From contig NZ_JAAMOW010000003.1 in assembly GCF_011067135.1 (NCBI RefSeq), positions 372,001 to 436,000 on the forward strand: a stretch of 64,000 bases of DNA, written 5' to 3'. This document shows positions 12,373 through 31,420 of this stretch, one piece after another. The notes beneath the pieces were generated by a model. That model made no database searches and was not told the origin of the DNA. It saw only the letters and a list, made by a program, of their open reading frames with translations. A program made the position numbers and the translations under genes. The stretch's first letter is position 1. Each line of letters begins with the position of its first letter. The stretch is from Solimonas terrae (lineage in GTDB: Bacteria > Pseudomonadota > Gammaproteobacteria > Nevskiales > Nevskiaceae).

Positions 12373-13713
12373 CTATTCGTCGTCTTGCGGCTTGAACTGC
12401 GAGGGCTCGAGACGATAGCGGTTCAGCAGCTTGTAGAAGTCCGTGCGATTGCGCCGCGCCAGCCGCGCCGCACGCGCGATGTTGCCACCGGACAGCTCAA
12501 GCAGCTGACGCAGGTAATTGCGCGCGAACTCGTCGCGCGCCTCGTCGAAGGCCGGCATGCTTTCCGTGGTGTCGCCCAGGCATTTGCGCACCAGCGCGGC
12601 ACTGATCGTCCGTCCCGGTGCTAGCGCCACGGTCTGTTCGACGACGTTGAACAGCTGGCGGACATTGCCCGGCCACGGCGCGGTCGCCAGCACGTCGAGT
12701 GCTTCCGGCGAATAGCGACAGCGCGGCCGGCCCTCGGCAAACAGTTGTTCGAGTCGATGCGTGACGAGCAGGCCGATGTCCTCGCGACGTCGTTCCAGCG
12801 CGGGCAGTTGCAGACGCACGACATTGAGTCGATAGAACAGGTCCTCGCGGAAACGGCCATCGGCGACCCTGGCTTCGAGATCGCAATGTGTCGCCGACAG
12901 CACCCGGACGTTGACCGGTATCGTGCGGGTGTCGCCGACCGGTCGGACTTCTCGTTCCTGCAGGACGCGCAGCAGCTTCACCTGCAGACCGGCCGGCATG
13001 TCACCGATCTCGTCGAGAAACACCGTGCCGCCGTGTGCCGCACGGAACAGGCCGGGATGATCGGCGTGCGCGCCGGTGAAGCTGCCTTTGCGATGACCGA
13101 ACAGTTCGGACTCCAGCAGATCCGCCGGCACCGCCGTGCAATTGATCGCGACGAACGGCGCTTCCCGGCGCGGGCTGCCATCGTGCAGCGCGCGCGCCAG
13201 CACTTCCTTGCCGGTGCCGCTGGCGCCGGTGATCAGCACGGCAGAGTCGGTGCGCGCAACGCGTTGCGCATCCTCGATGACCGCCTGCATCAGCGCGCTG
13301 CGCGTGACGATGCCGCGGGCCCAGCTCGACGCCGGTTCGCTGCCCGGTTCGAGGTGACGTTCGATGCAGCCGACCAGGCGTTCGCGGTCGACCGGCTTGG
13401 TCAGGAAATCGACCGCGCCGGCATGTGTCGCACGCACCGCGTCCGGAATGTCGCCGTGCGCCGACAGGATCGCGACCGGCAGGCTCGGGTGGCGGCTCTG
13501 GATCCGCGACAGCAGCTCGATGCCATCCAGATCGGGCATGCGCAGATCGGCCAGCACCATCTGCGGCCGTACATTGTCGAGCCGCTGCAAAGCTTCGTCG
13601 CCGCTGGCCGTGGCAATCACGCCATAGCCCTCGGCTTCCAGGCGCAGCGTCAGCACGCGCAGCAGCTTGGGGTCGTCGTCAACGAGCAGGATTTGATTTC
13701 GCGGCATTCCCAT
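12373..13713 (-). CDS. glrR: Sigma-54-dependent response regulator, GlrR-like
   Basis: NtrC-type activator, 446 residues. Receiver domain at 3-120 ([11 protein letters not shown]; phosphoacceptor Asp in [11 protein letters not shown]; Lys in FLTKPVD), AAA+ domain at about 140-365 (Walker A GASGTGKE, Walker [12 protein letters not shown]) and a sigma-54 contact loop GSFTGA, close to the classical GAFTGA. The C-terminal Fis-type helix-turn-helix is [21 protein letters not shown]. Starts at 13713 and 13707 are both possible. It is the last gene of a kinase-lipoprotein-regulator operon ordered as in E. coli glrK-qseG-glrR. The AlgB family is an alternative, but the lipoprotein gene between kinase and regulator favours GlrR. 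Confidence 0.9.
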
Positions 13714-14164
13714 TCGTGTCCAGGCTTCTTTCGATGTCGACAATCTTGTCGAGTCTCTGTTGCAGATCGCGGACTTCATTGCGGCAATCGTCGTCGGCAC
13801 TGCCATTGCCGATTTCGGTCAGGCGCACGCGTGCCAGCGCCGCGTCCTCGCTGTTCTTGCTGTAGGAGATGGCGTTGAGGCGCCGGCGCGCTGTATCCGG
13901 GTCGTAGCCGCTGTGTCCGGGCAGGCTCTGCAGCAGGGCGGTTTTCAGCGCCGCGTCACCGGAGTCCTGTTCGTGCTGGACGCTGCGCCACAGGGCCTCG
14001 CGCTTGACCGGCTGGCTGCTGGCAACTGCGAACATTTCGAGCGGCGTCTGCACGTCGTCAGACGGCCAGCGAAAGTTCGGCATCGTGCTGCACGCCGACA
14101 GCATCGACATGCTGAGGAAGAGGGCAGGGCCAGCGCAGCACAAAGCGCGCACCGGGCCGCGCAT
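13679..14164 (-). CDS. qseG: QseG-like outer membrane lipoprotein
   Basis: A 161-residue lipoprotein with signal peptide and lipobox LSAC (SMSMLSACSTMP), then a mostly helical domain ending in DLQQRLDKIVDIERSL. It sits between the kinase and regulator genes, as QseG (YfhG) does, where it interacts with the kinase. The Met at 14164 is needed for a full signal peptide, which makes the gene overlap the kinase 3' end by 107 bp; its own end overlaps the regulator start by 35 bp. Assignment rests mainly on gene order and lipoprotein character. Confidence 0.75.
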   Translation of the reverse strand: MRGPVRALCCAGPALFLSMSMLSACSTMPNFRWPSDDVQTPLEMFAVASSQPVKREALWRSVQHEQDSGDAALKTALLQSLPGHSGYDPDTARRRLNAISYSKNSEDAALARVRLTEIGNGSADDDCRNEVRDLQQRLDKIVDIERSLDTNGNAAKSNPAR

Positions 14165-15542
14165 CGCAGACCTCGACGTGGCCGCCATGCGCCTGCGCCA
14201 CCTCGCGGACGATCGACAGGCCGACGCCGGTGCCGCGGATGCCGCGCTCCTCGGCTTCCGTGCCGCGTATGAAAGGCTCGAATATCCGTTTCTTCTCTTC
14301 ATCCATGACTCCACGGCCGTAATCACGCACCGAGATCTCGCAATGGTTGTCGGGTGTGGCCGTTTCGATCTCGATCACCGAACCCGGCGGGGCATGCTTG
14401 ATGGCGTTGGTCAGCAGATTGTCGAGTGCGAGGCGCAGCTGCGAGCGCTGGCCGAACACGCCGGCCGGCGACAGGTGGAACTGGGTACGCAGCTCGCGCT
14501 TGGCCATCGGCAGCATGTGCAGGGCCAGCAGTTCCTCGAGCATCGGTCTTGCATCGAACCACCGGCGCTGTGCGTGGCGGCGCTCGGAACGCCATTCCGC
14601 GTACGCCAGCAGATTCGAAATCAGCGATTCGAGCTCGACGGTCGACTCGGCGAGAATGCCGGCGACCTCGTGCTGGCGCGGGCTCAGGGGACCGAGCGAA
14701 CCTTCGTGCAGCAGATCGGCGCCTTCGCGCAGACTGGCAAGCGGGGTCTTCAGTTCGTGCGAAACCTGCCGCAGAAACTGATCCTTGTCTGCTTCCAGCT
14801 GGGCCAGCCGTCGTCGCAGCCAGTCGAGCTGGTCGCCGAGGCGGCGCATCTCGCGTGGAAACGAAATGCTGACCGGGTGCGAGTAACGGCCGTGCCCGAG
14901 CGCGGCGATGGTCCGGTACAGATCGCGCAGCGGACGGGTGACGGCCACCGAGCACAGATAGGCCAACAGCGCCGCCAGCGGGATCAGGGTGAGCGCCGAC
15001 AACAGCATGTCGCGGCGCGCATTTCGGCTCGCTCGGCGGACATGCGCGAGGCGTTCGTCGATGCGTTGTCGCGCGGTATCGCGAATCGTGTCGACCTGCG
15101 GCTCGACGGCCTGGATCCGCGACACGGCCTCTTGCATCGATTCGGCCTCGGCCGTGCCGAGCTGCCAGTCGAGGCGCGCCTCGGCAAGTTCGTGGCGAAT
15201 CGCCGAGGCGCGCCGGGCACTGTCCGGATCGAGCTGATGCGCCTCGATTTCGCGAATCAGGTGGTGCAGGTCATTCCAGCGACGATCCGACAGCGACAGC
15301 AGCGCCGGATCCTGCAGCGCGAGGTACTGGCGGATCGTGCGTTCGAGATTCTGCAGCTGGTCGCGCATCTGGTCGCCGAGTTGCGAGACCGCAACGCCCT
15401 GATCGATCAATCGCTCGGTCTGTTGCGTGACACGCTCGAGCGCGAGCTCCGCCAGCAGCAGGGCGATCAGCAGCGGCAGTGCCGCCAGCACGCAACCTGC
15501 GGCGACGAGGCCGGTCATGGTGTTGGGAATTCGAATGGCCAT
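14058..15542 (-). CDS. glrK: Sensor histidine kinase, GlrK/QseE-like
   Basis: Inner membrane kinase of 494 residues. Membrane span at about 8-30 (GLVAAGCVLAALPLLIALLL), helical periplasmic domain to about 175, second span (LLSALTLIPLAALLAYL), HAMP, then HisKA with the phosphorylated His in QVSHELKTPLASL and HATPase (DNLLTNAIKHAPPG; DYGRGVM; GTGVGLSIVREV). It should phosphorylate the GlrR-like regulator two genes downstream. The last 20 or so residues past the ATPase domain come from sequence shared with the lipoprotein gene. It is divergent from algA across a 570-bp control region. Confidence 0.92.
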   Translation of the reverse strand: MAIRIPNTMTGLVAAGCVLAALPLLIALLLAELALERVTQQTERLIDQGVAVSQLGDQMRDQLQNLERTIRQYLALQDPALLSLSDRRWNDLHHLIREIEAHQLDPDSARRASAIRHELAEARLDWQLGTAEAESMQEAVSRIQAVEPQVDTIRDTARQRIDERLAHVRRASRNARRDMLLSALTLIPLAALLAYLCSVAVTRPLRDLYRTIAALGHGRYSHPVSISFPREMRRLGDQLDWLRRRLAQLEADKDQFLRQVSHELKTPLASLREGADLLHEGSLGPLSPRQHEVAGILAESTVELESLISNLLAYAEWRSERRHAQRRWFDARPMLEELLALHMLPMAKRELRTQFHLSPAGVFGQRSQLRLALDNLLTNAIKHAPPGSVIEIETATPDNHCEISVRDYGRGVMDEEKKRIFEPFIRGTEAEERGIRGTGVGLSIVREVAQAHGGHVEVCDARPGARFVLRWPCPLPQHVDAVGVQHDAELSLAV

Positions 15543-15657
15543 TACCGCGATTGCGATCCCTTCGCGATGGGTTGGCGAAATCTGACCGACCCAATGTGCG
15601 CATCGCCGCTGAACTTGCCGTGAACCGGACGCGGGGCGCCGTTCAGCGACGGCGAGC

Positions 15658-15675
15658 TGTCGCCGGCTGGCGACG
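15658..15675 (+). promoter_or_regulatory. GlrR-type site 1: TGTC-N10-GACG
   Basis: TGTCGCCGGCTGGCGACG, a near-perfect palindrome. It differs at one base from the TGTC-N10-GACA consensus known for GlrR at glmY and glmZ. It is the farthest of three sites upstream of the -24/-12 promoter and the closest to the kinase operon start. Confidence 0.6.
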
Positions 15676-15823
15676 CCCCTGCCGCCGTTGCGAGCCTCGA
15701 GTCACGCCCGATCGGTCGCCGGATGGTGCCGATGCCTTGCGCACAACGTGAATCGCGAGCGACGTTCGCGCATCGCCGGGCGAGTGGATCGATGCCGGGC
15801 GCGCGGCACCCTGGGTCCGCCGC

Positions 15824-15841
15824 TGTCTGCATCCGGCGACA
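15824..15841 (+). promoter_or_regulatory. GlrR-type site 2: TGTC-N10-GACA
   Basis: TGTCTGCATCCGGCGACA is an exact match to the GlrR consensus. It lies about 170 bp upstream of the -24 element at 15997, a normal enhancer distance for an NtrC-type activator. Confidence 0.65.
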
Positions 15842-15891
15842 GCATCGCGCGTCTGCGCAGGCGGAACTTTTTCGCGAATCCGGCGTGTTGC

Positions 15892-15909
15892 TGTCGCCGT
15901 TTGGCGACG
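15892..15909 (+). promoter_or_regulatory. GlrR-type site 3: TGTC-N10-GACG
   Basis: TGTCGCCGTTTGGCGACG matches site 1 at all but two central bases and fits the consensus with one difference. It lies about 100 bp upstream of the -24 element. Sites 2 and 3 are 68 bp apart, between six and seven helical turns. Confidence 0.65.
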
Positions 15910-15995
15910 CTTTTTGCGGCGCGACCGGGACGATTCACGTCGCTGGCCGCTGCCCGAATCGATAAGTCGCTGTTCGTGCAGCGATTGCGCGTCCG

Positions 15996-16011
15996 TGGCA
16001 TGGGCGTTGCC
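15996..16011 (+). promoter_or_regulatory. Sigma-54 (-24/-12) promoter of the alginate operon
   Basis: TGGCATGGGCGTTGCC has GG at 15997-15998 and GC at 16009-16010 with exactly ten bases between, and TGGCA-N6-TTGC matches the sigma-54 consensus at all core positions. Transcription would start near 16022, about 90 bp before algA. The three GlrR-type sites lie upstream at enhancer distances, and the gene for an NtrC-type activator is divergent from this region. Confidence 0.75.
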
Positions 16012-16113
16012 CCCTTCCCGGCAAGCGCTTGCGATTCGCCATGAACGCGAGCGACAGGGGCCGGAGCTTCCGGCACGAGGCCATGCGATGCGCTGATGAC
16101 AGACAGGTGAAGG

Positions 16114-17610
16114 ATGAAAACTCCGCCGCGACTTTTTCCGATGACCCAGGCGCGCCTGATGGTGCCCGTGCTGATGGCCGGTGGCAGCGGCACGCGGCTG
16201 TGGCCCTTGTCGCGCGAGCAGCATCCGAAACAATTCCTCTCCCTGCTGGGCCAGCAGAGCCTGTTCCAGCAGACGGTGCTGCGCACGACGACCATCGACG
16301 AGGCCACGGCACCGGTCGTGATCGGATCGGGCACGCATCGTTTCGTGATCGCCGAACAGTTGCGCCAGGCCGGCATTCGCGACGCGGCGATCCTGCTTGA
16401 ACCCGAAGGCCGCAACACCGCGCCGGCCGCCGCGGTTGCCGCCCATTTCGTCGCCGAAGAATTCGGACCCGACGCGATCGTCTTCCTGATGGCGGCCGAT
16501 CATGCGATCGGCGATCAGGCCGCGTTCGAAGCGGCCGTGCAGTCGGCGATCGATGCCGCAAGCCAGGGCTACATCGTCACCTTCGGCATCCGGCCGACGC
16601 GGCCGGAGACCGGTTTCGGTTATCTGAAGGTCAAGCCGAATTCACGGCTGGGCGCGAGTCGGGCGCAGGAAGTCGAGCGTTTCGTCGAAAAGCCGACCAT
16701 CGATCGCGCACGGCAGTTCATCGAGCAGGGCGATCACTACTGGAACGGCGGCATGTTCCTGTTCCGCTCCGGCCGCTTTCTTGCCGAACTGCGGCGTCTC
16801 GAACCGGAGACCTACATCCGCTCGCTCGAAGCCTTGCAGAAGGCCAGGCGCGAAGGCGACACGATCGCGCTCGACGGCCGCGCCTGGAAGGAATGTCGAA
16901 ACGAGTCGATCGACTACGCGGTGATGGAGAAAACCGAGCAGCTCGCGCTGGTGCCGCTCGATGCCGGCTGGGACGACGTCGGTTCATGGAATTTCCTCGA
17001 ACGGCTGCCGGCCAGCGATGCCGAAGACAACCGCACGCGCGGCGACGTCGTGCTCGAAGACGCGCACAACAACCTCGTGCATTCGAGCGGACGACTGGTG
17101 GCGATGGTCGGCGTCGACGATCACGTCGTCGTCGAGACCGATGACGCGGTGCTGGTCGCGCACAAGGATCGCGTACAGGACGTCCGCAAGATCGTGCAGA
17201 ACCTCAAGCGAAAGAAGCGAACCGAAGCCAATGCGCATCGCCGCGTCTATCGGCCCTGGGGCTTCTACGAGACGGTCGCCCTCGGCGAGCGCTTCCAGGT
17301 CAAGCGCATCCTGGTGAAGCCGGGCGAGAAGCTCAGCCTGCAGATGCATTTCCATCGCGCCGAACACTGGGTCGTCGTGCGCGGCACCGCCAAGGTGACC
17401 TGCAACGACAAGACCTTCTACATCTCCGAAGACCAGTCGACCTACATTCCGCTCGGCAACACGCATCGTCTGGAGAACCCGGGCAGGGTGCCGCTGGAGC
17501 TGATCGAGGTGCAGAGCGGTTGCTACCTCGGCGAAGACGACATCGTGCGCATGAGCGATTCCTACGGGCGCAGCGAAACACGCGACGCGCCCACCAAGGC
17601 CGTGGCCTGA
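16114..17610 (+). CDS. algA: Mannose-6-P isomerase / mannose-1-P guanylyltransferase
   Basis: Bifunctional type II enzyme: converts fructose-6-P to mannose-6-P, and mannose-1-P plus GTP to GDP-mannose. It has 498 residues. The guanylyltransferase domain opens with [21 protein letters not shown] and has FVEKP; the C-terminal cupin isomerase domain has the zinc-site motif [17 protein letters not shown]. Starts at 16114 (after AGGTGA) and 16141 are possible. The same family serves alginate (AlgA), xanthan (XanB) and other polymers; the algD-algL genes that follow fix its role here. It is first in the operon, whereas in Pseudomonas it is last. Confidence 0.94.
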
Positions 17611-17620
17611 GCGTGCAACG

Positions 17621-19045
17621 ATGAACGCCCCCCTCGACAGTGGTGCGGTCGTGCGCGACCGGCGGTCCGCGGTGCGTGCGTCGAAGACGCGCAGCCCGCG
17701 TGTGCCCTGCTTCAAGGCCTACGACATCCGCGGCCGGGTGCCGGATGAGCTCGACCAGACGATCGCCTACCGGCTCGGCCTTGCATATGCGGCGCGTTAC
17801 GCGCCACGCCGTGTCGCCGTCGGTCGCGATGTCCGCGAATCGAGCCCGATGCTGGCCGAAGCGCTCGCGCTCGGCCTGGTCCGCGGCGGCGCCGAAGTCA
17901 TCGACATCGGCCTGTGCGGAACCGAGGAGGTCTATTTCGCGGCGTTCCAGGATGGTGTCGACGGCGGCATCATGGTCACGGCCTCGCACAATCCGATCGA
18001 GTACAACGGTCTCAAGCTCGTGCATCGCGGCGCGCGGCCGATTTCCGGTGACAGCGGCCTGCGCGAACTCGAGCTGGCCGTCGCGCGTTCCATCGCCAGG
18101 CCCGGCGGCAAGGCGCCGGTGGTCGCCGGCAGTTTCCGGCAGGCCTACATCCAGCACCTGCTCGGCTACGTCGATGTGGCCGCGTTGAAGCCGCTGAAGA
18201 TCGCGGTCAACCCCGGCAATGGCGGCGCGGGCCTGATCATCGACGCGATCGAGCCGCATCTGCCGTTCCGCTTCGAGCGACTGCACGCCGAGCCCGACGG
18301 CCGTTTCCCGAACGGCATTCCCAACCCGCTGCTGCCGGACAACCGCATTGCCACACGCGATTTCGTGCGCAGCCGGGATGCCGATTTCGGCGTCGCTTGG
18401 GATGGCGATTTCGACCGCTGCTTCCTGTTCGACGAGCACGGCGACTTCATCGAGGGGTACTACATCGTCGGCCTGCTCGCCGAAGCCATGCTCGCGCGTA
18501 CGCCCGGCGCCCGGATCATCCATGACCCGCGCCTGAGCTGGAACACGATCGACGTGGTCACGGCCGCCGGTGGCGTGCCGGTGCAGAGCAAGACCGGCCA
18601 TGCCTTCATCAAGGAACGGATGCGCGCCGAGAACGCCGTGTACGGCGGCGAGATGAGCGCACATCACTACTTCCGTGACTTCGCGTACTGCGACAACGGC
18701 ACGATTCCCTGGCTGCTGGTTGCGCAGCTGATCAGCCAGAGCGGCCGGCGGCTCTCGGAACTGGTCGCTGACCGCCAGCGACGCTTTCCGGCCAGCGGCG
18801 AAATCAATCGCAAGGTCGCCGACATCGGCGCGGTGCTGGCCGATGTCCGGCGTCACTACGCGCCCGGCGCGCAGCGAATCGAGACCGTCGATGGGCTGTC
18901 GGTCGAGTACGCCGACTGGCGATTCAATCTGCGCGGCTCGAACACCGAGCCGGTGCTGCGCCTGAACGTCGAAAGCCGCGGCGACGAGGCCCTGATGCGC
19001 GCCAGGACCGACGAGCTGCTGCTGCGCATCGGCGGCAGCGAATGA
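17621..19045 (+). CDS. algC: Phosphomannomutase
   Basis: Interconverts mannose-6-P and mannose-1-P, the step between the two AlgA activities. It is 474 residues. The phosphoserine is about Ser122 in [12 protein letters not shown]; the metal loop is WDGDFDRCF; the sugar loop is [10 protein letters not shown]; the phosphate loop is [11 protein letters not shown]. It follows algA by 10 bp. The sequence looks closer to the ManB/CpsG branch than to Pseudomonas AlgC, and in Pseudomonas algC lies outside the alginate operon, so its presence here makes the cluster self-sufficient for precursor supply. Confidence 0.93.
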
Positions 19046-19106: not shown

Positions 19107-20417
19107 ATGAACATCAGCATTTTCGGCATGGGTTATGTGGGCGCGGTCTGCGCGGCCTGTTTCGCGGAGCGCGGCCATACCGTGATCGGCGTCGACGTAT
19201 CGGCCGACAAGGTGCGGCTGATCAACGCCGGCAAGTCGCCGATCGTCGAGCCCGGTCTGGAGGAACTGCTCGCGGCCGGCGTGAAGTCGGGGCATCTGCG
19301 GGCGACCAGCGCGACCGCCGAGGCGATCGAGAGCACCGAGATGTCGATGATCTGCGTCGGCACGCCGAGCAAGCGAAGCGGCGATCTCGACCTTGGCTAC
19401 ATCGAAGCGGTCACGCGCGAGATCGGTGCCATGCTCAAGCGCAAGAAGGCAAGGCATACGGTCGTCGTGCGCAGCACAGTGCTGCCGGGCACCGTCAACG
19501 GCCTGGTCGTGCCGCTGCTGGAGGAGGCATCCGGCAAGCTTGCCGGCGTCGATTTCGGCATCGCGGTCAATCCGGAATTCCTGCGCGAAAGCACCGCGAT
19601 CTACGACTACAACCATCCGCCGATGACGGTGATCGGCGAGTGGGACAAAGCCTCCGGCGATCTGCTCGCCTCGCTCTATCAGCACCTGCCGGCGACCATC
19701 ATCCGCAAGTCGATCGAAGTCGCCGAGATGGTCAAGTATTCGTGCAACGTCTGGCACGCGACCAAGATCTCGTTCGCCAACGAGATCGGCAACATCGCCA
19801 AGTCGCTCGGTGTCGACGGCCGGCAGGTCATGGAAGTGGTCTGCCAGGACTCCAAGCTCAATCTTTCCGATTACTACCTGCGGCCGGGCTTCGCGTTCGG
19901 TGGTTCCTGCCTGCCCAAGGACGTGCGCGCGCTGACCTATCGCGCGACGCAGATGGACGTCGAGATTCCCTTGCTGAAATCCCTGATGACGACCAATGGC
20001 GTGCAGGTCAGGAAGGCCTTCGATCTGGTCGAGTCGTTCGGCAAGCGCAAGATCGGCATGCTCGGCCTGTCGTTCAAGGCGAAGACCGACGATCTGCGCG
20101 AGAGCCCGCTGGTCGAGCTGGCGGAGATGCTGATCGGCAAGGGCTACGAGTTGTCGATCTTCGACAAGAACGTCGAATACGCGCGCGTGCACGGTGCCAA
20201 CCGCGAATACATCAACGGCAAGATTCCGCATATCTCGTCCTTGCTCAAGCCGGATCTGCAGGAAGTGATCGACGGCTCCGAAGTGCTGGTGCTCGGACTG
20301 CGCGATCGCAGCTTCGAGAAGTACGTCAACGGCTCGCGCGACGAGCGCAAGGTCGTCGATCTGGTCGGCTTCATGCCGCATCCGTCGACCGACGACATGC
20401 AGGGCATCTGCTGGTAG
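19107..20417 (+). CDS. algD: GDP-mannose 6-dehydrogenase
   Basis: Oxidises GDP-mannose to GDP-mannuronate with two NAD, the committing step of alginate synthesis. It is 436 residues, as in Pseudomonas. The Rossmann start is [19 protein letters not shown], and the catalytic Cys268 lies in [11 protein letters not shown], the same number as in P. aeruginosa Alg[16 protein letters not shown] is specific to this branch of the UDP/GDP-sugar dehydrogenases. A 61-bp gap separates it from algC, the largest in the operon, but I saw no clear second promoter in it. Confidence 0.96.
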
Positions 20418-20431
20418 GCCGGGCACTGACG

Positions 20432-21970
20432 ATGAGTGCGTTCGCGTCCGCCGGCGATGCTGTCCATGCGATGCCGCGTGCCCCGGAAGACCGGCCGCGC
20501 GGCCTCGATCTGGCCGGCTGGCTGATGTATGCCACCGCGCTGGTGTGGATCGCCCTGCTGTTGCCGGCCGACGCGTTCCAGCCCGGCTCGGCGAACTACG
20601 TGCTGGCGATCGGCGCACTCGGCATCTGGCGCTATTCGCTGCGTGCCATCCACTTCGTGCGCGGCATGTTGTTCCTGCATCGCGAATATCCGCGCCTGCG
20701 TCGCGAAGTGGAGGCGCTCGGCGACGCCGCGGCGCCGTCGCATGTGTACCTGATGATCACGAGTTTCCGCATCGACGCGCAGACCACCGCCGAGGTCTAC
20801 CGCGCGACGATCAGCGAAGGCATGCGCTGCGGCTGGCCATGCACGGTGGTCGCTTCGATCGTCGAAATGAGCGACGAGCGCATCGTGCTCGAGCTGTGGC
20901 GGCGCCTGGCACCGCCGGCGCACATGCGTCTGAAGATCGTCCGCATCCCGGGCACCGGCAAGCGCGACGGCCTTGCCCAGGGTTTCCGTGCGATCTCGCG
21001 CGACATGCCGGACCCGGATGCAGTGGTCGCGGTCATCGATGGCGACACCCTGCTGGAACCCGGTGTCGTCAGCCGGACCGCGCCGTTCTTCAGGCTGATG
21101 CCCGGTGTCGGCGGTCTGACCACCAACGAGTTCTGCAAGGTGGAGGGCAGCCATGTGATGAGCGAGTGGCACAAGCTGCGCTTCGCCCAGCGTCACCTCA
21201 ACATGTGCTCGATGGCCCTGACGCGCCGGGTGCTGACGCTGACCGGCCGCATGTCGCTGTTCCGCGTCGGCATCGTCACCGATCCGTGCTTCATCGACGA
21301 CGTGCAGAACGACGCCCTGGACCACTGGCGGCTGGGCCGTTTCAAGTTTCTGACCGGCGACGACAAGTCGAGCTGGTTCAGCCTGATGCGGCTCGGCTGG
21401 GACACCTGGTATGTACCGGACGCGGCGATCAGCACGGTCGAGCATCCGCCGCATCGCAGCTTCATCAAGGCCAGCCGCCAGCTGATGTTCCGCTGGTACG
21501 GCAACTCCCTGCGCCAGAACGGTCGTGCGCTTGCTCTCGGACCGTCGCGGCTGGGCTGGTTCACCTACTACGTGCTGCTCGACCAGCGCATCCTGATGTG
21601 GACCGGCCTGCTCGGCCTGGCGCTGGCGATCGCCGCCAGCATCAAGTTCGGCAGCATCATGTTCCTGGTCAGTTTCGCGCTGTGGGTCGGCATGACCCGC
21701 CTGCTGATGAGCTGGTTGCTGCTGCTGTCCGGCCATCCGATCGGGCCGGCGTTCCCTCTGCTTCTGTACTACAACCAGATCGTCGGCTCGATCGTGAAGA
21801 TTCACGTCTCGTTCCGGCTCGACCAGCAGTCGTGGACGCGGCAGAAGACCCGGCTTGCCACCAGCGGCGACGGCTTTCAGACCCGCTTCAACTGGTGGTC
21901 CTCGCACCTGCTGATGTTCGCCGCGATCAGCGTGTTCGCGGCCGTCGTGCTGTCGATGGTGGAGCTCTGA
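20432..21970 (+). CDS. alg8: Mannuronan synthase, glycosyltransferase family 2
   Basis: Inner membrane polymerase that makes poly-mannuronate. It is 512 residues with N-terminal membrane spans, a cytoplasmic GT2 domain and C-terminal spans. Catalytic motifs are VIDGDT (substrate Asp), [10 protein letters not shown] (the TED-like base) and [14 protein letters not shown] (QxxRW-like). The Met at 20432, 14 bp after algD, gives a hydrophobic segment starting near residue 25. The frame is open much further upstream inside algD, but that is a shadow. Confidence 0.95.
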
Positions 21971-22021: not shown

Positions 22022-23257
22022 ATGGATGACGGTAGCTCTCCCAATGTCGTGCACGAAGCCGAGGCGCAGCGCCAGCATCCGCGCGTACGCGTGCCGGGTC
22101 TCGTGCACGTGGCGCAATCCGCCGGCGAACATCGCTATGCGCTGCAGGATCTGTCGGCCGGCGGCCTGAGCTTCGTCGTCAGCGACAAGGCCCGCTTTGC
22201 GACGAACGATGTCTATCGGGCGCGTCTGTCGTTCACGATCGCTCCGGTCGCTTTCGTTCTGCCGGTGAGCTTCCAGATCCGCAATGTCAGCGCCGACGGC
22301 AAGCGCGTCGGCGCGATGTTCCAGAACCTCGGTGCACGCGAGATCGCCGTGCTGCGGCAGGTGATCGGCGGCACGCTGGCCGGCGAACTGGTCGCGACCG
22401 GCGATGTCATCACGGCACTGTCACGCGACAACTTCACCAAGGCGCGGCAGACCCAGCCGGCCAGCAGCAGCCTGAGCGGCAAGGCCCGCGCCCGCGCGCT
22501 GACGATGACGGTCGCGATGTTCGCCCTTGGCCTGCTCGCGTTCTTCTATGCGATCGGCAAGCTGTATGCGATGGCGTTCGTCACGCGCGCGTCGGCAGCG
22601 AAGATCGCGGCACCGAGCTATTCGGTGGTCATGCCCCGCGACGGTACGTTCTTCAGCCTCGTGCCGCCGGACGGCATCGTCAAGAAGGGCCAGCCGCTCG
22701 GCTCCTTCCAGGCCGCGATGCTCGATGTCGTGCAGACCGACATCGGTTCGCTGCACCTGTCGCCGGAGCAGCTTTCGCAGCTGATGGGCGACCAGCTCAA
22801 GGGCACCTTGAGCAGCCCCTGCGACTGCAAGGTCCAGCAGCAGTTTTCGGCCGACGGTCAGTATGCGAATCGCGGCCAGCCGCTGTTCGAGCTGGTGCCG
22901 GCCGACGCGCGACCGTATGTGCTGGCGCGCTTCCGTTTCGACAACATCGACGATCTGCCGATCGGCAAGACCGTCGCGTTCACGATTTCCGGCGAGGGTG
23001 GCGAACGCTACGGCAAGGTCAAGGATGTGCGGCTGTTGTCGGCGGCCGGTGCCGAATCGAGCACCAGCAGTGATGCGCGTGGCCTCAACAATCAGGGCTC
23101 GGTTGCCGACGTGATCGTCACGATCGAGCCGATACGCGCACTCGATCCGTCGCTGATCGATCGTCCGGTCGAGGTCCAGCTCGGCGGTCAGACGCTGATC
23201 TGGAGCAAGCTGTCGCACCTCGGCGATCGTCTGGCCCGCGAGGTGCAGCCGGCATGA
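22022..23257 (+). CDS. alg44: Alginate polymerase c-di-GMP receptor subunit
   Basis: PilZ-domain partner of Alg8. It is 411 residues: a cytoplasmic PilZ domain with RQHPR (Arg17, Arg21) and DLSAGG (Asp43, Ser45), the c-di-GMP contacts, nearly in the numbering of the Pseudomonas protein; one membrane span at about 165-185 (TMTVAMFALGLLAFFYAIG); and a periplasmic HlyD-like domain. c-di-GMP binding should switch on polymerisation. Its stop overlaps the algK start by four bases. Confidence 0.95.
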   Translation: MDDGSSPNVVHEAEAQRQHPRVRVPGLVHVAQSAGEHRYALQDLSAGGLSFVVSDKARFATNDVYRARLSFTIAPVAFVLPVSFQIRNVSADGKRVGAMFQNLGAREIAVLRQVIGGTLAGELVATGDVITALSRDNFTKARQTQPASSSLSGKARARALTMTVAMFALGLLAFFYAIGKLYAMAFVTRASAAKIAAPSYSVVMPRDGTFFSLVPPDGIVKKGQPLGSFQAAMLDVVQTDIGSLHLSPEQLSQLMGDQLKGTLSSPCDCKVQQQFSADGQYANRGQPLFELVPADARPYVLARFRFDNIDDLPIGKTVAFTISGEGGERYGKVKDVRLLSAAGAESSTSSDARGLNNQGSVADVIVTIEPIRALDPSLIDRPVEVQLGGQTLIWSKLSHLGDRLAREVQPA

Positions 23258-25599
23258 ACCGGCGCACGCCATCGCGGCTGCCGTCGCGCGGCCTGGTGTC
23301 GCTGGCGGTTGCCGCGCTGGTTTTCGGCGTGCGCTACGACGCTTACGCCTACGGCAATCATCGCGACAAGCAGGGTGAGGGTGCACTGGTCGAACACGCC
23401 GAAGGCCTGCCGGATCTGGCGCGCGGCAGGCAGGCCGCCATCGAGGGCCGGCTCGATGATGCGGAAGCCGATCTGAAGCCGCTCGCCGAGCGGGGTTACG
23501 TCGAGGCGCAGATCGCACTCGCCAGTCTGTACGCCGAACTCGGCACGCCTGAACGCGTCGCCGAGGCGATCGGCTGGTTGCGCACCGCACGCAACAGCAG
23601 CCCGCTCGACACCGAAACGCCTTTGGGTCGCCTGCTGGTCCGACAGAACGACGAGGCTTCGATCGGCGAGGGCCGGGCCTTGCTCGGCGACGCCTGGCAG
23701 CGCCATCACGACCCGGCTGCGCTCGCCGGCCTGATCCGGCTCTACAGCGAGCAACCGCGGCGCGACGCCGATCACCAGGTTGCGGCGCTGGTCGCACAGG
23801 CCGAGCGCATCGGCACGCCGGACGTGCGGGGCGCGATCATCGACTGGTATCGCAGCACGCGCGGCGACGACGGCCATGCCGACAAGCTCGTATCGCTGTG
23901 CGATCGCTGGGTGGACCAGGTGCCGGGCTGCTACGTCGATCTGGCGCGTGCCGCGCGTGCCGACGGCCACGCCGACCGTCTGCAGTCGCTGGTCAAGGCG
24001 GCCGGCGACCGGTACGCCGACGGACGTGTCGATGCGCCGACCCTGGCGTCGCTGGCACGCGTGCTGGTCGCACCGCTGGACACCGGTGACGACGATGACG
24101 ACGACGGTGCGGCGCCGAGCGCGCCGGTCCGGATTTCCGATGTCAGCGAAGACGAAGGCGAACTCGGCGACACCGCCGTGCAGGCACAAGCGGCGCGCGG
24201 CGATGGCAGCCAGGTCTGCACGCGCGTAGTGCTGACGCCGCCCGATGGCGCTGCGGTCGCCACGACGACCGGCGCGTCGGCCGCGCGTGGGTTGCCGGCA
24301 CAGGCCGACATGGCCAATGCGCTGCTCGGCAAGCTGTTCGCCGGGCCGACCGAGGCCGCGGTGCTCGCTGCCGGTGTCGTCGCCCGCTATCCGTATCTGT
24401 TGCCGAACGTCGACGTCCAGGCGCGACTCGAGCGGGGCGCCACCCAGGGCGTGCCCGAGGCGTCGCTGTATCTCGGGCAGCTCTATCTCGGCGGCGAGCG
24501 CACGCAGCGCGATCCGCAGCAGGCCCTGCGTTATCTGCAGCAGGCCGCTGCGCAACCGGCGACCGCGCTCAAGGGCCATTACTACCTCGGCCGCCTGTAC
24601 CAGTACGGCTATCTCGACGAGAGCCGGCCCTTGCTCGCCGCGCAATACCTGATGTGGTCGGCGCGGCGCGGCGATGCCGCGGCCGACGGCGCGCTCGCGC
24701 GCCTGTTCGTCAACGGCAAGGGTCTGTGCCCGAACCTGCGCAACGCCGACGTATTTGCGCGGCTCGGCGCGCACGAGGGCAGTGCGTCGGCCGCGCAGCT
24801 CGAACGACAGATCGCCGCACTGCTGCCGGCCGAGCAGCTGGCCAGCGTCGATCAGATGTACAGCGCCGAACTCGCGGTGCGACCGTCGGCCTACCAGATC
24901 CCGAAGACCATGCTCGCCGAAGCGGCGGCGATCGCGCGCCAGCATGGCATCGATCCCGCAGCCGACGACGCGGCGGTCGACGGCGCCGCCGTCGCGAACG
25001 TCGATCCCGCGACGGGCCGTGGTGGCGACGCAGTCGATCCCGCGATCGACAACGAAGCGGTCGACGCGAGCGCGGCCAGCGATACTCCGGCGGTCCCCGC
25101 TGTGCCCGCCGCCGCTGCGACCTCCGCAGCAGTGGACCCGGCGCCGTCGTCGCCGGCCGCGACGGCGCCGGTGGACCGTGCGTCGCGCGAAGCGCAGACG
25201 ATTCCGGCGTCCGACGCCGATGCCGTGCCGGACATCGCCACGACCACGCCTGCTACGCCACCGTCGGGTGTCGACGCTGCCGTGTCCGAGGCTGCGCCGA
25301 CGCCGCCGGTTCCGTCCGCCACACCGCCCGCGACCGCCGCTCGCGACGCGCTGGCCTTGAAGTTGAGCGCGCGGTTCGCCACGCCGCCGGCGACGCCGCA
25401 GGCACCGCTGCATCTGTCGCATCGCGCGTCGGACGATCCGGCCTTGCGCAAGCTGCTGGAGTCGTCGTCGCAGACTGCCGCCACGCCTTCATCAACGGTG
25501 ACCGAGCCGGTGCAGGCGATCGAATACACCGTACCGCTGCAGACGCCGGCAACGCAGCCCGGCGTTCCCGATCCTTCGCGTTCCGGTGATCCCTCATGA
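23254..25599 (+). CDS. algK: Alginate periplasmic TPR scaffold, long variant
   Basis: TPR/Sel1-repeat protein linking the inner membrane complex to AlgE. Repeats are visible (ARGRQAAIEGRLDDAEADLK; EASLYLGQLYLGGERT; ALKGHYYLGRLYQYG). Two features are odd. At 781 residues it is far longer than the roughly 475-residue Pseudomonas protein: there is an acidic insert near 270-315 (starting GDDDDDDGAAP) and a low-complexity Ala/Pro/Thr/Asp tail from about 567 to the end. And the N-terminus has a signal peptide (GLVSLAVAALVFGV) but no cysteine, so it cannot be a lipoprotein as the Pseudomonas one is. Assignment rests on repeats and position. Confidence 0.85.
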   Translation: MNRRTPSRLPSRGLVSLAVAALVFGVRYDAYAYGNHRDKQGEGALVEHAEGLPDLARGRQAAIEGRLDDAEADLKPLAERGYVEAQIALASLYAELGTPERVAEAIGWLRTARNSSPLDTETPLGRLLVRQNDEASIGEGRALLGDAWQRHHDPAALAGLIRLYSEQPRRDADHQVAALVAQAERIGTPDVRGAIIDWYRSTRGDDGHADKLVSLCDRWVDQVPGCYVDLARAARADGHADRLQSLVKAAGDRYADGRVDAPTLASLARVLVAPLDTGDDDDDDGAAPSAPVRISDVSEDEGELGDTAVQAQAARGDGSQVCTRVVLTPPDGAAVATTTGASAARGLPAQADMANALLGKLFAGPTEAAVLAAGVVARYPYLLPNVDVQARLERGATQGVPEASLYLGQLYLGGERTQRDPQQALRYLQQAAAQPATALKGHYYLGRLYQYGYLDESRPLLAAQYLMWSARRGDAAADGALARLFVNGKGLCPNLRNADVFARLGAHEGSASAAQLERQIAALLPAEQLASVDQMYSAELAVRPSAYQIPKTMLAEAAAIARQHGIDPAADDAAVDGAAVANVDPATGRGGDAVDPAIDNEAVDASAASDTPAVPAVPAAAATSAAVDPAPSSPAATAPVDRASREAQTIPASDADAVPDIATTTPATPPSGVDAAVSEAAPTPPVPSATPPATAARDALALKLSARFATPPATPQAPLHLSHRASDDPALRKLLESSSQTAATPSSTVTEPVQAIEYTVPLQTPATQPGVPDPSRSGDPS

Positions 25600-27050
25600 A
25601 AACAAGATCCGGCCGCTCGACGACGAGCCTGCCCCGCAACACCCTGTCGCTGGCGATCGCCGCGGCTTTCGGTCTGTCCACACCGCTGGCGGCGCATGCC
25701 GTCGAAGCCGACTGGCGTCTGAAAGCGACGCTCGCCGGTGTCGCCGACGGCGGCCGCGATCTCGGTCTGCAGGATGCGAAGGACACGCGCGAGGGCTATA
25801 TCGATACAACGCCATGGCTGCATCTGCAGTTCTCGCCCGACTGGGCGGCGTTCCTGCGAATCCGCGGCTATGCGCCGACCGGCAGCCTGCTGCAGTCGGG
25901 GCAGGACGACAACAACCAGAGCGCCAGCAAGCAGGCCTTCGTCGGCCTGGACGAAGCCTGGTTCGAATACGGCGGCCTGACCAGCTATCCCGGCGAGGCG
26001 CTGCGCATCGGCCGCCAGCGTCTGCGCAACGACGACGCGGAGTTTTTCGATGAAGACATCGATGCCGTGCGCTGGATCTTCGACACCACCCTGCTCGATG
26101 CCGATCTTGGCGTGGCGCGCCAGTCCGACACCTACCGCACGGACGATGTCGAACTGCCGGCGAATCAGGACCATCGTACCTACAGCTTCGGCAGCCTGGC
26201 CTGGGACTGGGCGGCGCGCCAGCAGATCGGCTTTCGCGTCGTCCATGCCGACGACGACAATCATCTGCAGGCGGTCGGCGACACGGTCGAGACCGGGCGA
26301 CGCCTGAGCAAGGGCCAGCAGACCTGGATCAACGCGCACGTCGACAACCATCCGTATGACTGGCAGCAACTGCAGTCGGTGTCGTACTGGCTGTCGGCGA
26401 GCTATCTGACCGGCAGCCGCGACCGACTCGAAGTCACGCCGACGGTCGATCCCGTCAGTGGCGAGACCAGCGAGCTTGCGAGCGCGCAGGTGCACGACGA
26501 TCTCAAGGCCTGGGCCGGCGACGCCGGACTGCGCGTGCGCCTCGGCGGTCCGGTGCAGGCCGGCGTCGCGTACGCGTACAGCGAGGGCGACGGCAACGGC
26601 GAGCAGCAGTACGAACAGACCGGCCTGCAGAGCAACTACTCGCGTTTCACCGGCACGCGCACGCAGATCTATCGCTACAACGATGCGCTGCGCCCCGAAC
26701 TGGGGAACCTGCAGGCCGCGACGGCCTTCCTGTCGGCCGACGCCGGCGCCTGGGATGCGAGCCTGATCTACAACAAGCTGCGCCGCCCCGACGCGGACGC
26801 CCCGATCGTCAGCGACAGCCTGCGCGTGTCGCCGACCGTGGCCTCGCACGATCTCGGTCAGGGCGTCGATCTGGTGCTGACGCGCTACTTCGACATCACC
26901 GGTGCGGGTACCGCGACCGCGTATACGCCGGACGACAGCGGCGACAGTTCGATCCGTCTGCGCGGCTCCTGGTTCAAACCCGGCGATGCCTACGGAAACG
27001 ATGCGAAGAACGAGTATCGCGTCGTGCTGGAGTTCACCGCGTGGTATTGA
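25596..27050 (+). CDS. algE: Alginate export outer membrane porin
   Basis: Eighteen-stranded beta-barrel through which alginate leaves the cell. It is 484 residues with signal peptide (LSLAIAAAFGLSTPLAAHA). Family segments include EAWFEYGGLTSYPGEALRIG, RQRLRNDDAEFFDEDIDAV and a barrel-type C-terminus ending in aromatic residues (LEFTAWY). It overlaps algK by four bases and algG by ten. Confidence 0.93.
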   Translation: MKTRSGRSTTSLPRNTLSLAIAAAFGLSTPLAAHAVEADWRLKATLAGVADGGRDLGLQDAKDTREGYIDTTPWLHLQFSPDWAAFLRIRGYAPTGSLLQSGQDDNNQSASKQAFVGLDEAWFEYGGLTSYPGEALRIGRQRLRNDDAEFFDEDIDAVRWIFDTTLLDADLGVARQSDTYRTDDVELPANQDHRTYSFGSLAWDWAARQQIGFRVVHADDDNHLQAVGDTVETGRRLSKGQQTWINAHVDNHPYDWQQLQSVSYWLSASYLTGSRDRLEVTPTVDPVSGETSELASAQVHDDLKAWAGDAGLRVRLGGPVQAGVAYAYSEGDGNGEQQYEQTGLQSNYSRFTGTRTQIYRYNDALRPELGNLQAATAFLSADAGAWDASLIYNKLRRPDADAPIVSDSLRVSPTVASHDLGQGVDLVLTRYFDITGAGTATAYTPDDSGDSSIRLRGSWFKPGDAYGNDAKNEYRVVLEFTAWY

Positions 27051-28783
27051 GGCCGCAAGCCGGCGTCTGGCTGGCGGCGCTGCTTTGCGCGCTGCTCAGC
27101 GGCATCGCCGCGGCACAGCTCGACGGCGACGCCGCGCCCGACGAGCCGGCGATCGCCGTGCCCCGGGTACCGAGCGGCCCCAGCATCGACAACAGCACCG
27201 ACAACGGCCACGACAATGCCGATGCCGACGATGAAATGATCGACGCCGACAGCGACGATCCCGGCGAGCGCTATCAGACCGACGGTTCCGATCAGGACGA
27301 CAACGCCGAGGACGATCGCATGCTCGCCGACGCGGCGAAGCGGCCGTACGTGGTCGATGTCACCAGCGGTGCGTCGTTGAAACTCGATCCGCCCGAGCTG
27401 CCGGACCTGAGCCGCTACACGGCAGCCAATGCGATCGCCAAGATCCGCAAATCGCCGCACGGCCATGCCGAAGTGCGCAGCATGCTCGACGAGCTTTCGT
27501 TCAGGAGTTTCATGGGGCGCGACGAGCGCATGCGCGACTGGGCGGCGCGCCAGAAGTCGCTGCCCAAGGTGATCTTCGTCCACGGCTACATGACGCCGCG
27601 CGACATCGCGCAACAGGTTCCGCGCGAGTACTTCCAGCAGACCGCCAGGGGCGTGTTCGTCGCGCGTCTGCCGATCGACGTGCGACCGGACGCGACCCTG
27701 CACATCGACGATTCGGTTTCGGACTTCCGTCTGTCCATCAACCGCGGCGCGTTTCTCGTCAACGAGGGCAAGCTGTTCATCACCGGCGCGCGCCTGCGTG
27801 GCTGGGACGAGGCGAAGAACGCGCCTTCGACCTTCATCGACAAGCATCGCTTCCGGCCGTTCATGGTGTCCTGGGGCGGCTCGCAGACCTACATCATCAA
27901 GAGCGTGGTCGCCGATCTCGGCTACGCCGCGTCGAAGTCCTACGGCGTGTCGATCTCGCAGTTCTCGCCGTCGCTGGCGCCGAAGATGAACCGGCCGAAT
28001 CCCACCGGCTGGCTGATCGATTCGGAGTTCTACGACAACTGGTATGGTTTCTACTGCTACGAGGCTGAGGATGTCGTGATCCGCGGCAATGACTATCACG
28101 ACAACATCAAGTACGGCATCGATCCGCACGATCGTTCGCGGCGGCTGATCATCGCCGAGAACAAGGCGCATGACACCAGGGAAAAGCACGGCATCATCGT
28201 GTCGCGCGAAGTCGACGACAGCTGGATCATCGACAACCAAGCCTACGACAACAATCTCTCCGGCATCGTCGTCGACCGCAACAGCATCAACAATGTCGTC
28301 GCCCACAATCGCGTCTACCGCAATCACGCCGACGGCATCACGATCTACGAAAGTCCGAAGACGTTGATCTGGCAGAACCTCGTCAGTGCCAACCGCCGCC
28401 ACGGCATTCGTGTGCGCAACAGCACCAATCTGCGCCTGTACGGCAATGTCGCGATCGGCAACGGCCTGTCCGGCATCTACGGTCACATCAAGAATCTCGC
28501 CGGCACCGGCCGCAACCTGCGGCTCGATCCGTTCCACGAGCGGATTTCGATGACGGTCGTCGGCGGCCAGCTGATCTCCAACGGTTCCAGTCCGGTCGGT
28601 ATCGACCAGCCGCTTAGCCTGGAGTTGTACGACGTCGACATGCGCGCCCCGCAGCGCCAGCTCGGCATCAAGTTCACCGGCATTCTCGGCAAGCACCAGG
28701 AACAGGTGCTCGACGTGCTGATGCGGCAGAAGAAGGCCGTGATCCTGCGGCCCGCCGACGCCACCGTGGCCAGCGCGAAATAG
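27041..28783 (+). CDS. algG: Mannuronan C5-epimerase
   Basis: Periplasmic right-handed beta-helix enzyme that turns some mannuronate residues into guluronate in the polymer. It is 580 residues with signal peptide (WLAALLCALLSGIAAA) from a GTG start inside the end of algE. The catalytic DPHD motif is at 361-364, followed by KHGIIVSREVDD and parallel-helix repeats (NNVVAHNRVYRNHADGITIY). An acidic, disordered stretch follows the signal peptide (about 25-95), longer than I expect for the Pseudomonas enzyme. Confidence 0.95.
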   Translation: MVLRPQAGVWLAALLCALLSGIAAAQLDGDAAPDEPAIAVPRVPSGPSIDNSTDNGHDNADADDEMIDADSDDPGERYQTDGSDQDDNAEDDRMLADAAKRPYVVDVTSGASLKLDPPELPDLSRYTAANAIAKIRKSPHGHAEVRSMLDELSFRSFMGRDERMRDWAARQKSLPKVIFVHGYMTPRDIAQQVPREYFQQTARGVFVARLPIDVRPDATLHIDDSVSDFRLSINRGAFLVNEGKLFITGARLRGWDEAKNAPSTFIDKHRFRPFMVSWGGSQTYIIKSVVADLGYAASKSYGVSISQFSPSLAPKMNRPNPTGWLIDSEFYDNWYGFYCYEAEDVVIRGNDYHDNIKYGIDPHDRSRRLIIAENKAHDTREKHGIIVSREVDDSWIIDNQAYDNNLSGIVVDRNSINNVVAHNRVYRNHADGITIYESPKTLIWQNLVSANRRHGIRVRNSTNLRLYGNVAIGNGLSGIYGHIKNLAGTGRNLRLDPFHERISMTVVGGQLISNGSSPVGIDQPLSLELYDVDMRAPQRQLGIKFTGILGKHQEQVLDVLMRQKKAVILRPADATVASAK

Positions 28784-28797
28784 GGAGCGTCAGAAAA

Positions 28798-30237
28798 ATG
28801 GTCTTTTCATCGAATGTCTTCCTGTTCCTGTTCCTGCCGATGTTCCTGGCGATCTACTACCTGACGCCGGATCGTGGTCGCCTGCGCAACTACGTCGTGC
28901 TGATCGGCAGTTACGCGTTCTACGCCTGGTGGCGGATCGACTTTCTCGCGCTGTTCGCCGCCGTCACGGTGTGGAACTACCTCGTCGGCATGGGCATCGC
29001 CCGCAATGGGCGCGGCACGCCGACGGCGAAGCGCTGGCTGGTCGCCGGCGTCGTCGTCGATCTGGCGACACTCGGGTACTTCAAGTACGCGAACTTCGGC
29101 GTCGGCAGCCTCGATGCCCTGCTGCAAGGTATCGGTCTGCAGCCGTTCGCGTTCGAGCACGTGATCCTGCCGATCGGCATTTCGTTCTACATCTTCGAGT
29201 CGATCAGCTACATCAGCGACGTCTACCGCGGTGACGTCGAAGCCACCGAACATCCGGTCGACTTCGCGACCTTCATCGCGCTGTTCCCGCACCTGATCGC
29301 CGGGCCGGTGTTCCGCTACAAGGATCTCGCCGACCAGTTCGAGCACCGCGAGCACAGCGTCACGCTGTTCGGGCAGGGCGCGCTGCGCTTCATGCAGGGC
29401 TTCATCAAGAAGGTCTTCATCGCCGACTCGATCGCGCCGCTGGTCAGCCACGCCTTCGCGCTGGCGAATCCAACCACGGCCGATGCCTGGCTCGGTGCGC
29501 TGTCGTACACGGTGCAGCTGTATTTCGACTTTTCCGGCTACAGCGACATGGCGATCGGCCTCGGCCTGATGATGGGCTTCCGCTTCGTCGAGAACTTCAA
29601 CCAGCCCTACATCAGCCAGAGCATCACCGAGTTCTGGCGGCGCTGGCACATGAGCCTGTCGAGCTGGTTGCGCGACTATCTCTACATCTCGCTGGGCGGC
29701 AATCGCGGCGGCACGGCGAAAACCTACCGCAACCTGTTCCTGACGATGCTGCTCGGCGGCCTCTGGCATGGCGCCAACTGGACCTTCCTGTTGTGGGGTG
29801 CCTGGCACGGCGCGATCCTCTGCGTCGAGCGCGTGCTCGGCGTGAAGGCGAAGGTCGAAGGTTTTCGCGTCTGGCGCTGGGCGCCGACCTTGCTGTTCGT
29901 CGTGCTCGGCTGGGTCATGTTCCGCGCCGAGAACGTCGGCACGGCGATCGATTTCTACGCCGCCATGTTCCGCTTCGACGGCGCCGGTTTCTCCGACGTC
30001 TACGCCAGCTCGATCACGCAGCTGCAGCTGACGACGATGGCGGTCGCGATCGTCGTGCTGATCGTGCGTGGCGCGATGGTGCATCAGGAGACCGCGGCCG
30101 CCCCGCGGCCGCCGATCCGCGCCGCGCGCCTGCGCGCGATGAGCGCGGCGCAGTGGCTGGTCTGGCCGCTGTTCCTGCTGGCGGTCCTGAAGCTGTCGGC
30201 GCAGAGCTATTCGCCGTTCCTCTATTTCCAGTTCTAG
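28798..30237 (+). CDS. algI: Alginate O-acetyltransferase, MBOAT
   Basis: Membrane-bound O-acyltransferase that passes acetyl groups across the inner membrane for alginate acetylation. It is 479 residues with many spans. The MBOAT active His is at about 324 in GGLWHGANWTFLLWG, and QLYFDFSGYSDMAIGLG and EFWRRWHMSLSSWLRDYLY are family signatures. In Pseudomonas, algX and algL lie between algG and algI; here algI follows algG directly by 14 bp. Confidence 0.96.
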   Translation: MVFSSNVFLFLFLPMFLAIYYLTPDRGRLRNYVVLIGSYAFYAWWRIDFLALFAAVTVWNYLVGMGIARNGRGTPTAKRWLVAGVVVDLATLGYFKYANFGVGSLDALLQGIGLQPFAFEHVILPIGISFYIFESISYISDVYRGDVEATEHPVDFATFIALFPHLIAGPVFRYKDLADQFEHREHSVTLFGQGALRFMQGFIKKVFIADSIAPLVSHAFALANPTTADAWLGALSYTVQLYFDFSGYSDMAIGLGLMMGFRFVENFNQPYISQSITEFWRRWHMSLSSWLRDYLYISLGGNRGGTAKTYRNLFLTMLLGGLWHGANWTFLLWGAWHGAILCVERVLGVKAKVEGFRVWRWAPTLLFVVLGWVMFRAENVGTAIDFYAAMFRFDGAGFSDVYASSITQLQLTTMAVAIVVLIVRGAMVHQETAAAPRPPIRAARLRAMSAAQWLVWPLFLLAVLKLSAQSYSPFLYFQF

Positions 30238-30252
30238 GTTCAAGGACGAACG

Positions 30253-31398
30253 ATGAAAGAGTCCAGGGAAAATCAGGTCGCGCAGGCGGCACGCACGCCG
30301 GCATTGCACGCGCTGCTGTTCATGGCGGCGGTGCTGGCGATCGCGGTCGCGGCCGCCGTGAAGTCGCGCCACTACGAACCGAAAGTCGATCAGGCCGTGC
30401 TCGACGGGCGCATGGCGCACGATTTCGAAACCCAGTACGACCACGATTTCCCGGCGCGCAACTTCGGCATCAGTCTGTGGGCGGCGATCGATTACGTGCT
30501 GTTCCATGAAGCGGGCAGCGGCGTCGTGGTCGGCCGCGACGGCTGGCTGTATACCGACGAGGAATTCAGGGTCGATGACCAGTCGGCCTCGCGTGTCGCG
30601 CGCAATCTGGCGACGATCGCCGAGGTCGACGATCGTCTCGCCGCGAGCGGCGTCAAGCTGGTGGTTGCCATCGTCCCGGCGAAGGCCCGCGTCTATCCCG
30701 AGCACCTCGGCCGGCGCACACCGCCATCGCTGCATCAGGCGCTCTATGTGGAGGCCGGTCAGGCGCTGACGCACGATGGCATCGCCCATGCCGATCTGCT
30801 GACGCCGCTGCGCGACGGCAAGACTCAGGGCGCGAGCTTCCTGCGCACCGATACGCACTGGACGGTTCGCGGCGCGCAGCTGGCAGCGCAGGCGATCGCG
30901 ACCGTCGTGCGTCGGCAACTGCCGGCCGCCGATGCCGCGAAGGCGTTCACGACCACGCGTTCGGCGCCGCAGGTGCATCGCGGCGATCTGCTCAACTTCC
31001 TGCCGCTGGCGCCGTACTTTTCCTGGCTGCTGCCGCCGGCCGAGACGATCGTGCCGGCGCATACGCAGAGCGCCGGCGCCGGCGATCTGCTCGGCGCCGG
31101 TGTCGCGCCGCGCATCGCGCTGGTCGGCACCAGCTACAGCGCCAACCCGAACTGGAACTTCGTCGGCGCGCTGCAGCAAGCGCTCGGCGAGGATGTTGCC
31201 AGCTACGCCAGGGATGGACTCGGCCCTTTCGCGCCGATGCGGGATTACCTCGCCGGCAGCGATTTCAAGGATGCGCCGCCGCAGCTCGTGATCTGGGAAA
31301 TCCCGGAACGCTATCTCGCGGTCGCGGCGCAAGCCGCCCGGCACCCGTCGGCGTCGGCCGCACCCCAGCCGCCGGCCAACGGACCGGCCGGACTTTGA
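30253..31398 (+). CDS. algJ: Alginate O-acetylase, SGNH-like
   Basis: Periplasmic, membrane-anchored acetyl-transfer protein. It is 381 residues with an uncleaved N-terminal anchor (LHALLFMAAVLAIAVAAAV). The catalytic residues are Asp200 and His202 in TDTHWT, and Ser294 in VGTSYSAN, the AlgJ/AlgX layout. It follows algI by 15 bp. A Pro/Ala-rich tail ends the protein. Confidence 0.94.
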   Translation: MKESRENQVAQAARTPALHALLFMAAVLAIAVAAAVKSRHYEPKVDQAVLDGRMAHDFETQYDHDFPARNFGISLWAAIDYVLFHEAGSGVVVGRDGWLYTDEEFRVDDQSASRVARNLATIAEVDDRLAASGVKLVVAIVPAKARVYPEHLGRRTPPSLHQALYVEAGQALTHDGIAHADLLTPLRDGKTQGASFLRTDTHWTVRGAQLAAQAIATVVRRQLPAADAAKAFTTTRSAPQVHRGDLLNFLPLAPYFSWLLPPAETIVPAHTQSAGAGDLLGAGVAPRIALVGTSYSANPNWNFVGALQQALGEDVASYARDGLGPFAPMRDYLAGSDFKDAPPQLVIWEIPERYLAVAAQAARHPSASAAPQPPANGPAGL

Positions 31399-31420
31399 GT
31401 TGATCTTCACGGAGCAAGCG

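Follow-up and report, generated by a model that had tools for sequence, protein, structure and literature searches.

A conserved sigma-54 promoter with GlrR-type sites points to direct control of an alginate operon by the adjacent regulator

The alginate operon of Solimonas terrae is, with a probability of about 0.9, directly controlled through sigma-54 by the GlrR-type response regulator encoded next to it, judging from comparisons of sequence. The operon and the regulator are part of a window of 64,000 nucleotides (the whole stretch of DNA that was analysed; Table 1), and the intergenic region of 571 bp separating algA from the divergent glrK contains three TGTC-N10-GAC(A/G) sites and one -24/-12 promoter. 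Such wiring had been proposed in a sequence-only reading of this DNA, and it is strongly supported by the conservation of the layout, as a sigma-54 promoter with GlrR-type sites precedes the alginate operon in all eight of the family genomes that carry the nearer operon type along with GlrR.

Table 1. Features of the glrKGR-alginate region, in window coordinates
Feature	Coordinates	Strand	Remarks
GlrR-type sigma-54 response regulator	12373..13707	-	start inferred (ORF call begins 13806)
QseG-like lipoprotein	13679..14164	-	lipobox LSAC; start inferred (ORF call begins 14326)
glrK-type sensor kinase	14058..15542	-	HAMP, HisKA, HATPase; 29% identical with GlrK of E. coli across 401 aa
Distal GlrR-type site, TGTCGCCGGCTGGCGACG	15658..15675	.	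338 bp 5' of -24 start; near-perfect palindrome
Middle GlrR-type site, TGTCTGCATCCGGCGACA	15824..15841	.	172 bp 5' of -24 start
Proximal GlrR-type site, TGTCGCCGTTTGGCGACG	15892..15909	.	104 bp 5' of -24 start; near-perfect palindrome
IHF-like element, GAACAGCGACTTA	15963..15975	-	between sites and promoter; 2 mismatches
Sigma-54 -24/-12 promoter, TGGCATGGGCGTTGCC	15996..16011	+	predicted start near 16021-16022
algA, GMP/PMI bifunctional enzyme	16114..17610	+	first gene of operon; TIGR01479 over cut-off
algC-like phosphomannomutase	17621..19045	+	profile search
algD-type GDP-mannose dehydrogenase	19107..20417	+	profile search
alg8-type GT2 glycosyltransferase	20490..21970	+	start approximate; within ORF 19640-21970
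alg44	22022..23257	+	PilZ plus HlyD-like
algK	23254..25599	+	NF038194, under its cut-off
algE, alginate export	25596..27050	+	PF13372
algG mannuronan epimerase	27041..28783	+	NF038177, over cut-off
Acetylation genes as a group	28798..33633	+	algI, AlgX/J-like, algF, AlgX-like with CBM
algI	28798-30237	+	acetylation group
AlgX/J-like gene	30253-31398	+	acetylation group
algF	31400-32050	+	acetylation group
AlgX-like gene with CBM	32035-33633	+	acetylation group
algL alginate lyase	33620..34711	+	NCBIfam model over cut-off

The divergent operon encodes a sensor kinase, a lipoprotein and an NtrC-type activator, just as had been described earlier, and the gene order (kinase, lipoprotein, regulator) is that of the GlrKGR type. 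The regulator possesses the domains expected of GlrR, a receiver, a sigma-54 AAA+ domain (Pfam) and a C-terminal helix-turn-helix. Aligned over 438 residues, it shares 55% identity with E. coli GlrR, and the two proteins hardly differ in the recognition helix, RNRT(D/E)FYKLL. The best of all models for this protein is the NCBIfam GlrR equivalog PRK15115, at 565 bits versus 349 bits as a PEP-CTERM regulator; as the cut-off of 763 is not reached, the protein is referred to here as 'GlrR-type'. The lipoprotein, by its lipobox and its place between glrK and glrR, takes the position of QseG, the periplasmic partner of GlrK in E. coli. Along its full length, its sequence is not significantly similar to that of E. 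coli QseG, BLASTP gives no match between the two, and in a profile comparison only a C-terminal motif of 15 residues aligns, with a probability of 8% (LDKIVDIERSLD in the lipoprotein, beside LENLTDIERQLS in E. coli QseG).

On the opposite strand, the alginate set is full (AlgA, AlgD, Alg8, Alg44, AlgK, AlgE, AlgG, AlgX, AlgL), and the earlier naming of the operon's first gene as algA is upheld by the TIGR01479 match.

As to the control region, a pattern search recovers the three sites and the -24/-12 promoter at the places originally proposed. Two of the sites (15658 and 15892) are indeed near-perfect palindromes, whereas in the middle site (15824) only the half-sites match; to call the promoter 'ideal' was slightly strong, as it carries two mismatches to TGGCAC-N5-TTGCW, with the invariant GG-N10-GC intact. 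A single TGTC-N10-GACA is unremarkable (two are present in the window, a number reached in 22 of 100 shuffles); three or more such sites within 571 bp, one half-site mismatch being allowed, are rare and arose in 7 of 20,000 Markov shuffles. Conservation of the spacing in eight genomes is the more decisive evidence. A T-run is found at 15910-15914, directly 3' of the proximal site, and most of the eight promoters have a similar run at this place. Followed by CTTTTT, the stretch 15892-15909 scores as terminator-like in a scan, and so the palindromes might be regarded as intrinsic terminators, a proposition made highly improbable by the lack of any gene reading rightward into the region, by the absence of a T-run at the middle and distal sites as well as at the sites of E. 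coli glmY, and by the fixed positions of the sites relative to the promoter downstream.

The distribution of the genes in question across the family is informative as well. Orthologs of GlrR are present in 18 of 58 family genomes and AlgG in 14, and eight genomes have both. Where AlgG is of the nearer type, GlrR accompanies it in 8 of 9 genomes, a contig end interrupting the remaining one, G035; among the 49 other genomes, GlrR is present in 10 (p = 0.0002). Five family genomes possess a divergent alginate operon (AlgG 38-48%), and in these GlrR is absent and no pair of site and promoter was found. In a search of 369 genomes of the class, the only AlgG found was that of the window.

The sites in the eight promoters, some of them with one half-site mismatch and the one at 113 bp with two, precede the -24 start by 104/172/338 (window), 104/170/360, 104/173/373, 104/185/284, 113/180, 102/168/325, 104/171/322 and 103/170/322 bp. 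Conservation of the sites in relatives, which the earlier reading had suggested as a check, is thus borne out, proximal and middle sites being present in 8/8 promoters and distal sites in 7/8. The proximal site is found at 102-104 bp in seven promoters and at 113 bp in one, the middle site at 168-173 bp in six and at 180 and 185 bp in the other two, and the distal site, where present, at 284-373 bp. For any one promoter, a site with no more than one mismatch would fall at 102-105 bp by chance with a probability of 0.0005-0.0032, values that are not simply multipliable, as the eight genomes are related and shuffle statistics overstate their independence; the sequence flanking the sites is much diverged among them. 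Six of the eight promoters carry an IHF-like element at -32/-33, all on one strand, against at most three of eight in 1000 shuffles.

Divergent operons flank the sites, and 116 bp separate the distal site from the glrK start, an arrangement that could also suggest autoregulation of the glrK operon, with the alginate operon being merely a neighbor. One genome, G081, is instructive in this respect: its glrKGR genes are on another contig, three sites are still present at the alginate promoter, and no GlrR-type site was found upstream of its glrK, which ties the sites to the alginate promoter and not to autoregulation. In addition, the spacing of the sites is locked to the sigma-54 promoter facing algA, and no sigma-54 promoter facing glrK was matched within the glrK-algA interval, making autoregulation very unlikely as the purpose of the sites. 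In G010 (L045, C28), of the same genus, the alginate operon is gone, and a match to the 34 C-terminal residues of AlgL is found near 7041, beside glrK. As this piece, which resembles the last 34 codons of algL, is located beside glrK, loss of the operon through deletion is suggested, with glrKGR kept and the algL piece as a scar.

The GlrK-QseG-GlrR system of E. coli and its relatives, alternatively named QseE-QseG-QseF, controls glmY/glmZ and rpoE. To our knowledge, GlrR is known almost solely from enterobacteria, the targets being the sRNAs GlmY and GlmZ, and rpoE, and little is known so far about the GlrK-QseG signal. The system in the window shares with that of E. coli the order of its genes, the GlrR-type recognition helix, the consensus of the sites, the distance of the first two sites from -24 and the position of the IHF-like element. 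It differs in its target, a polysaccharide operon and not an sRNA or a sigma factor, in the much diverged lipoprotein, and in that GlmZ was not found in the genome. In the glmY promoter of E. coli MG1655, sites are located at 107, 170 and 203 bp before -24, and an exact IHF consensus is located at -31, on the strand opposite to that of the element in the alginate promoters. Both the RpoN dependence of glmY, an established target of GlrR and sigma-54, and the consensus TGTC-N10-GACA are derived from the literature (PMC4987338, PMC6075780, PMC8745638). In Erwinia amylovora, amylovoran in yfhA/yfhK (glrR/glrK) mutants was not much different from wild type (PMC2698875).

By analogy with these parts, activated GlrK, with the lipoprotein possibly acting as its periplasmic partner, would lead to phosphorylation of GlrR; a GlrR oligomer would then bind the TGTC-N10-GACA-type sites, and looping, presumably aided by IHF, would carry it onto the RNA polymerase-sigma-54 waiting at the promoter, so that transcription of the operon, from algA to algL, would begin near 16022. 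Envelope stress, named as the input by the sequence-only reading, is carried over from E. coli and goes beyond the sequence evidence. A direct exopolysaccharide target of glmY-like geometry would show what GlrR controls outside the enterobacteria, alginate producers outside Pseudomonas would gain a simple, testable switch, and the slime phenotype would offer an easy read-out for finding the GlrK-QseG signal.

Alginate regulation in Pseudomonas and Azotobacter involves AlgU/MucA, AlgR, AlgB/KinB and RpoN, and in Pseudomonas, the algD promoter is driven by AlgU. The alginate genes in the window are homologous in type to those of Pseudomonas and Azotobacter, including the PilZ domain of Alg44, but, unlike in Pseudomonas, the operon begins with algA and a sigma-54 promoter with GlrR-type sites is positioned directly before it. 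NtrC-type regulators and RpoN have already been linked to alginate in Pseudomonas/Azotobacter (PMC12350332, PMC3684759); in Pseudomonas PAO579, RpoN affects alginate indirectly, upstream via pilA and algW (PMC3684759). The substitution for AlgB/KinB and AlgU proposed by the sequence-only reading goes beyond the evidence, though the Pseudomonas circuit may have been replaced: none of the eight alginate promoters matches a promoter pattern of the sigma-E/AlgU type, but a gene for an RseA/MucA-type anti-sigma factor is present in the genome. This gene, along with several other NtrC-type regulators encoded in the genome, would also allow for the operon being driven by a different activator of sigma-54, or from a promoter of the sigma-70 or sigma-E type, with a minor role for GlrR. 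We consider this unlikely, as no sigma-70-type promoter was matched in 15400-16200, the sigma-E-type pattern is missing as noted, and the sites fit the GlrR consensus and occur together with GlrR. NtrC reportedly controls exopolysaccharide in Burkholderia and Vibrio vulnificus, and an RpoN-dependent PEP-CTERM gene is reported to be involved in floc formation (PMC5491218, PMC3162934, PMC9850573); these systems share with the present case an enhancer-binding protein or sigma-54 acting over exopolysaccharide or floc genes, while the regulator here is, in distinction, of the GlrR type. Titles and abstracts in the literature searched describe neither control of alginate by GlrR, an absence that is not proof, nor control of exopolysaccharide by QseF, most subscription papers being outside the scope of the search.

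Across the whole genome, which possesses two full-length rpoN genes (G000:C16:294089 and C13:529566), the alginate promoter is the single place that fits a strict pattern (site, 80-102 bp, TGGCA-N7-TGC). A looser pattern adds one place, C11:92119, rejected as a second target as it overlaps an FNR-type palindrome. Also rejected was the perfect palindrome upstream of trkA, between rsmB and trkA (TGTCGCCAAATGGCGACA; TGTCGCCATTTGGCGACA at L004 1501-1518, G000:C15:12368-12385), which is without an evident sigma-54 promoter and is not conserved in the genus, being missing from all ten of its other genomes. Tandem glycine riboswitch aptamers are present at 2324-2614 of the window.

Similar layouts are found before other genes in relatives. 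One example is an operon for a polysaccharide (TackOD1/GT2) near glrKGR in G017, G036, G032, G065 and G072; four of these five genomes have a site at 104-105 bp. The operons with TackOD1-domain and GT2 genes near glrKGR correspond to loci L044, L042, L043, L205 and L206, most with the same site spacing. Another example is G020, with sites at 104/171 bp before an uncharacterised gene; divergent from it is a glmS-like gene, which has a sigma-54-like promoter to itself. In this locus (L055), at 3397-3903, GlrR-type sites are thus located between divergent sigma-54-like promoters, one of them facing the glmS-like gene, and direct control of glmS by GlrR, without an sRNA, is possible in this genome. 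Elsewhere in the order, paired sites are found at about 112-116 and 176-183 bp, and in two annotated cases the gene that they precede, next to glrR, is a BON-domain gene or an EF-hand-like gene.

It may be, with the chances about even, that GlrKGR in this order is a regulator of envelope proteins and of polysaccharides at the cell surface, and that a single promoter cassette (sites near -104/-170, an IHF-like site and a sigma-54 promoter) has been placed before alginate genes, TackOD1-GT2 genes and, in one genome, the uncharacterised gene divergent from the glmS-like gene. If so, the plan seen at glmY would be a more general one, with the sRNA targets of E. coli as one of its branches. In the GlrR tree, the alginate-linked GlrRs do not form one clade; a 'rewired' system, as the earlier reading had it, is plausible, and the alginate link either is old and was exchanged or arose more than once.
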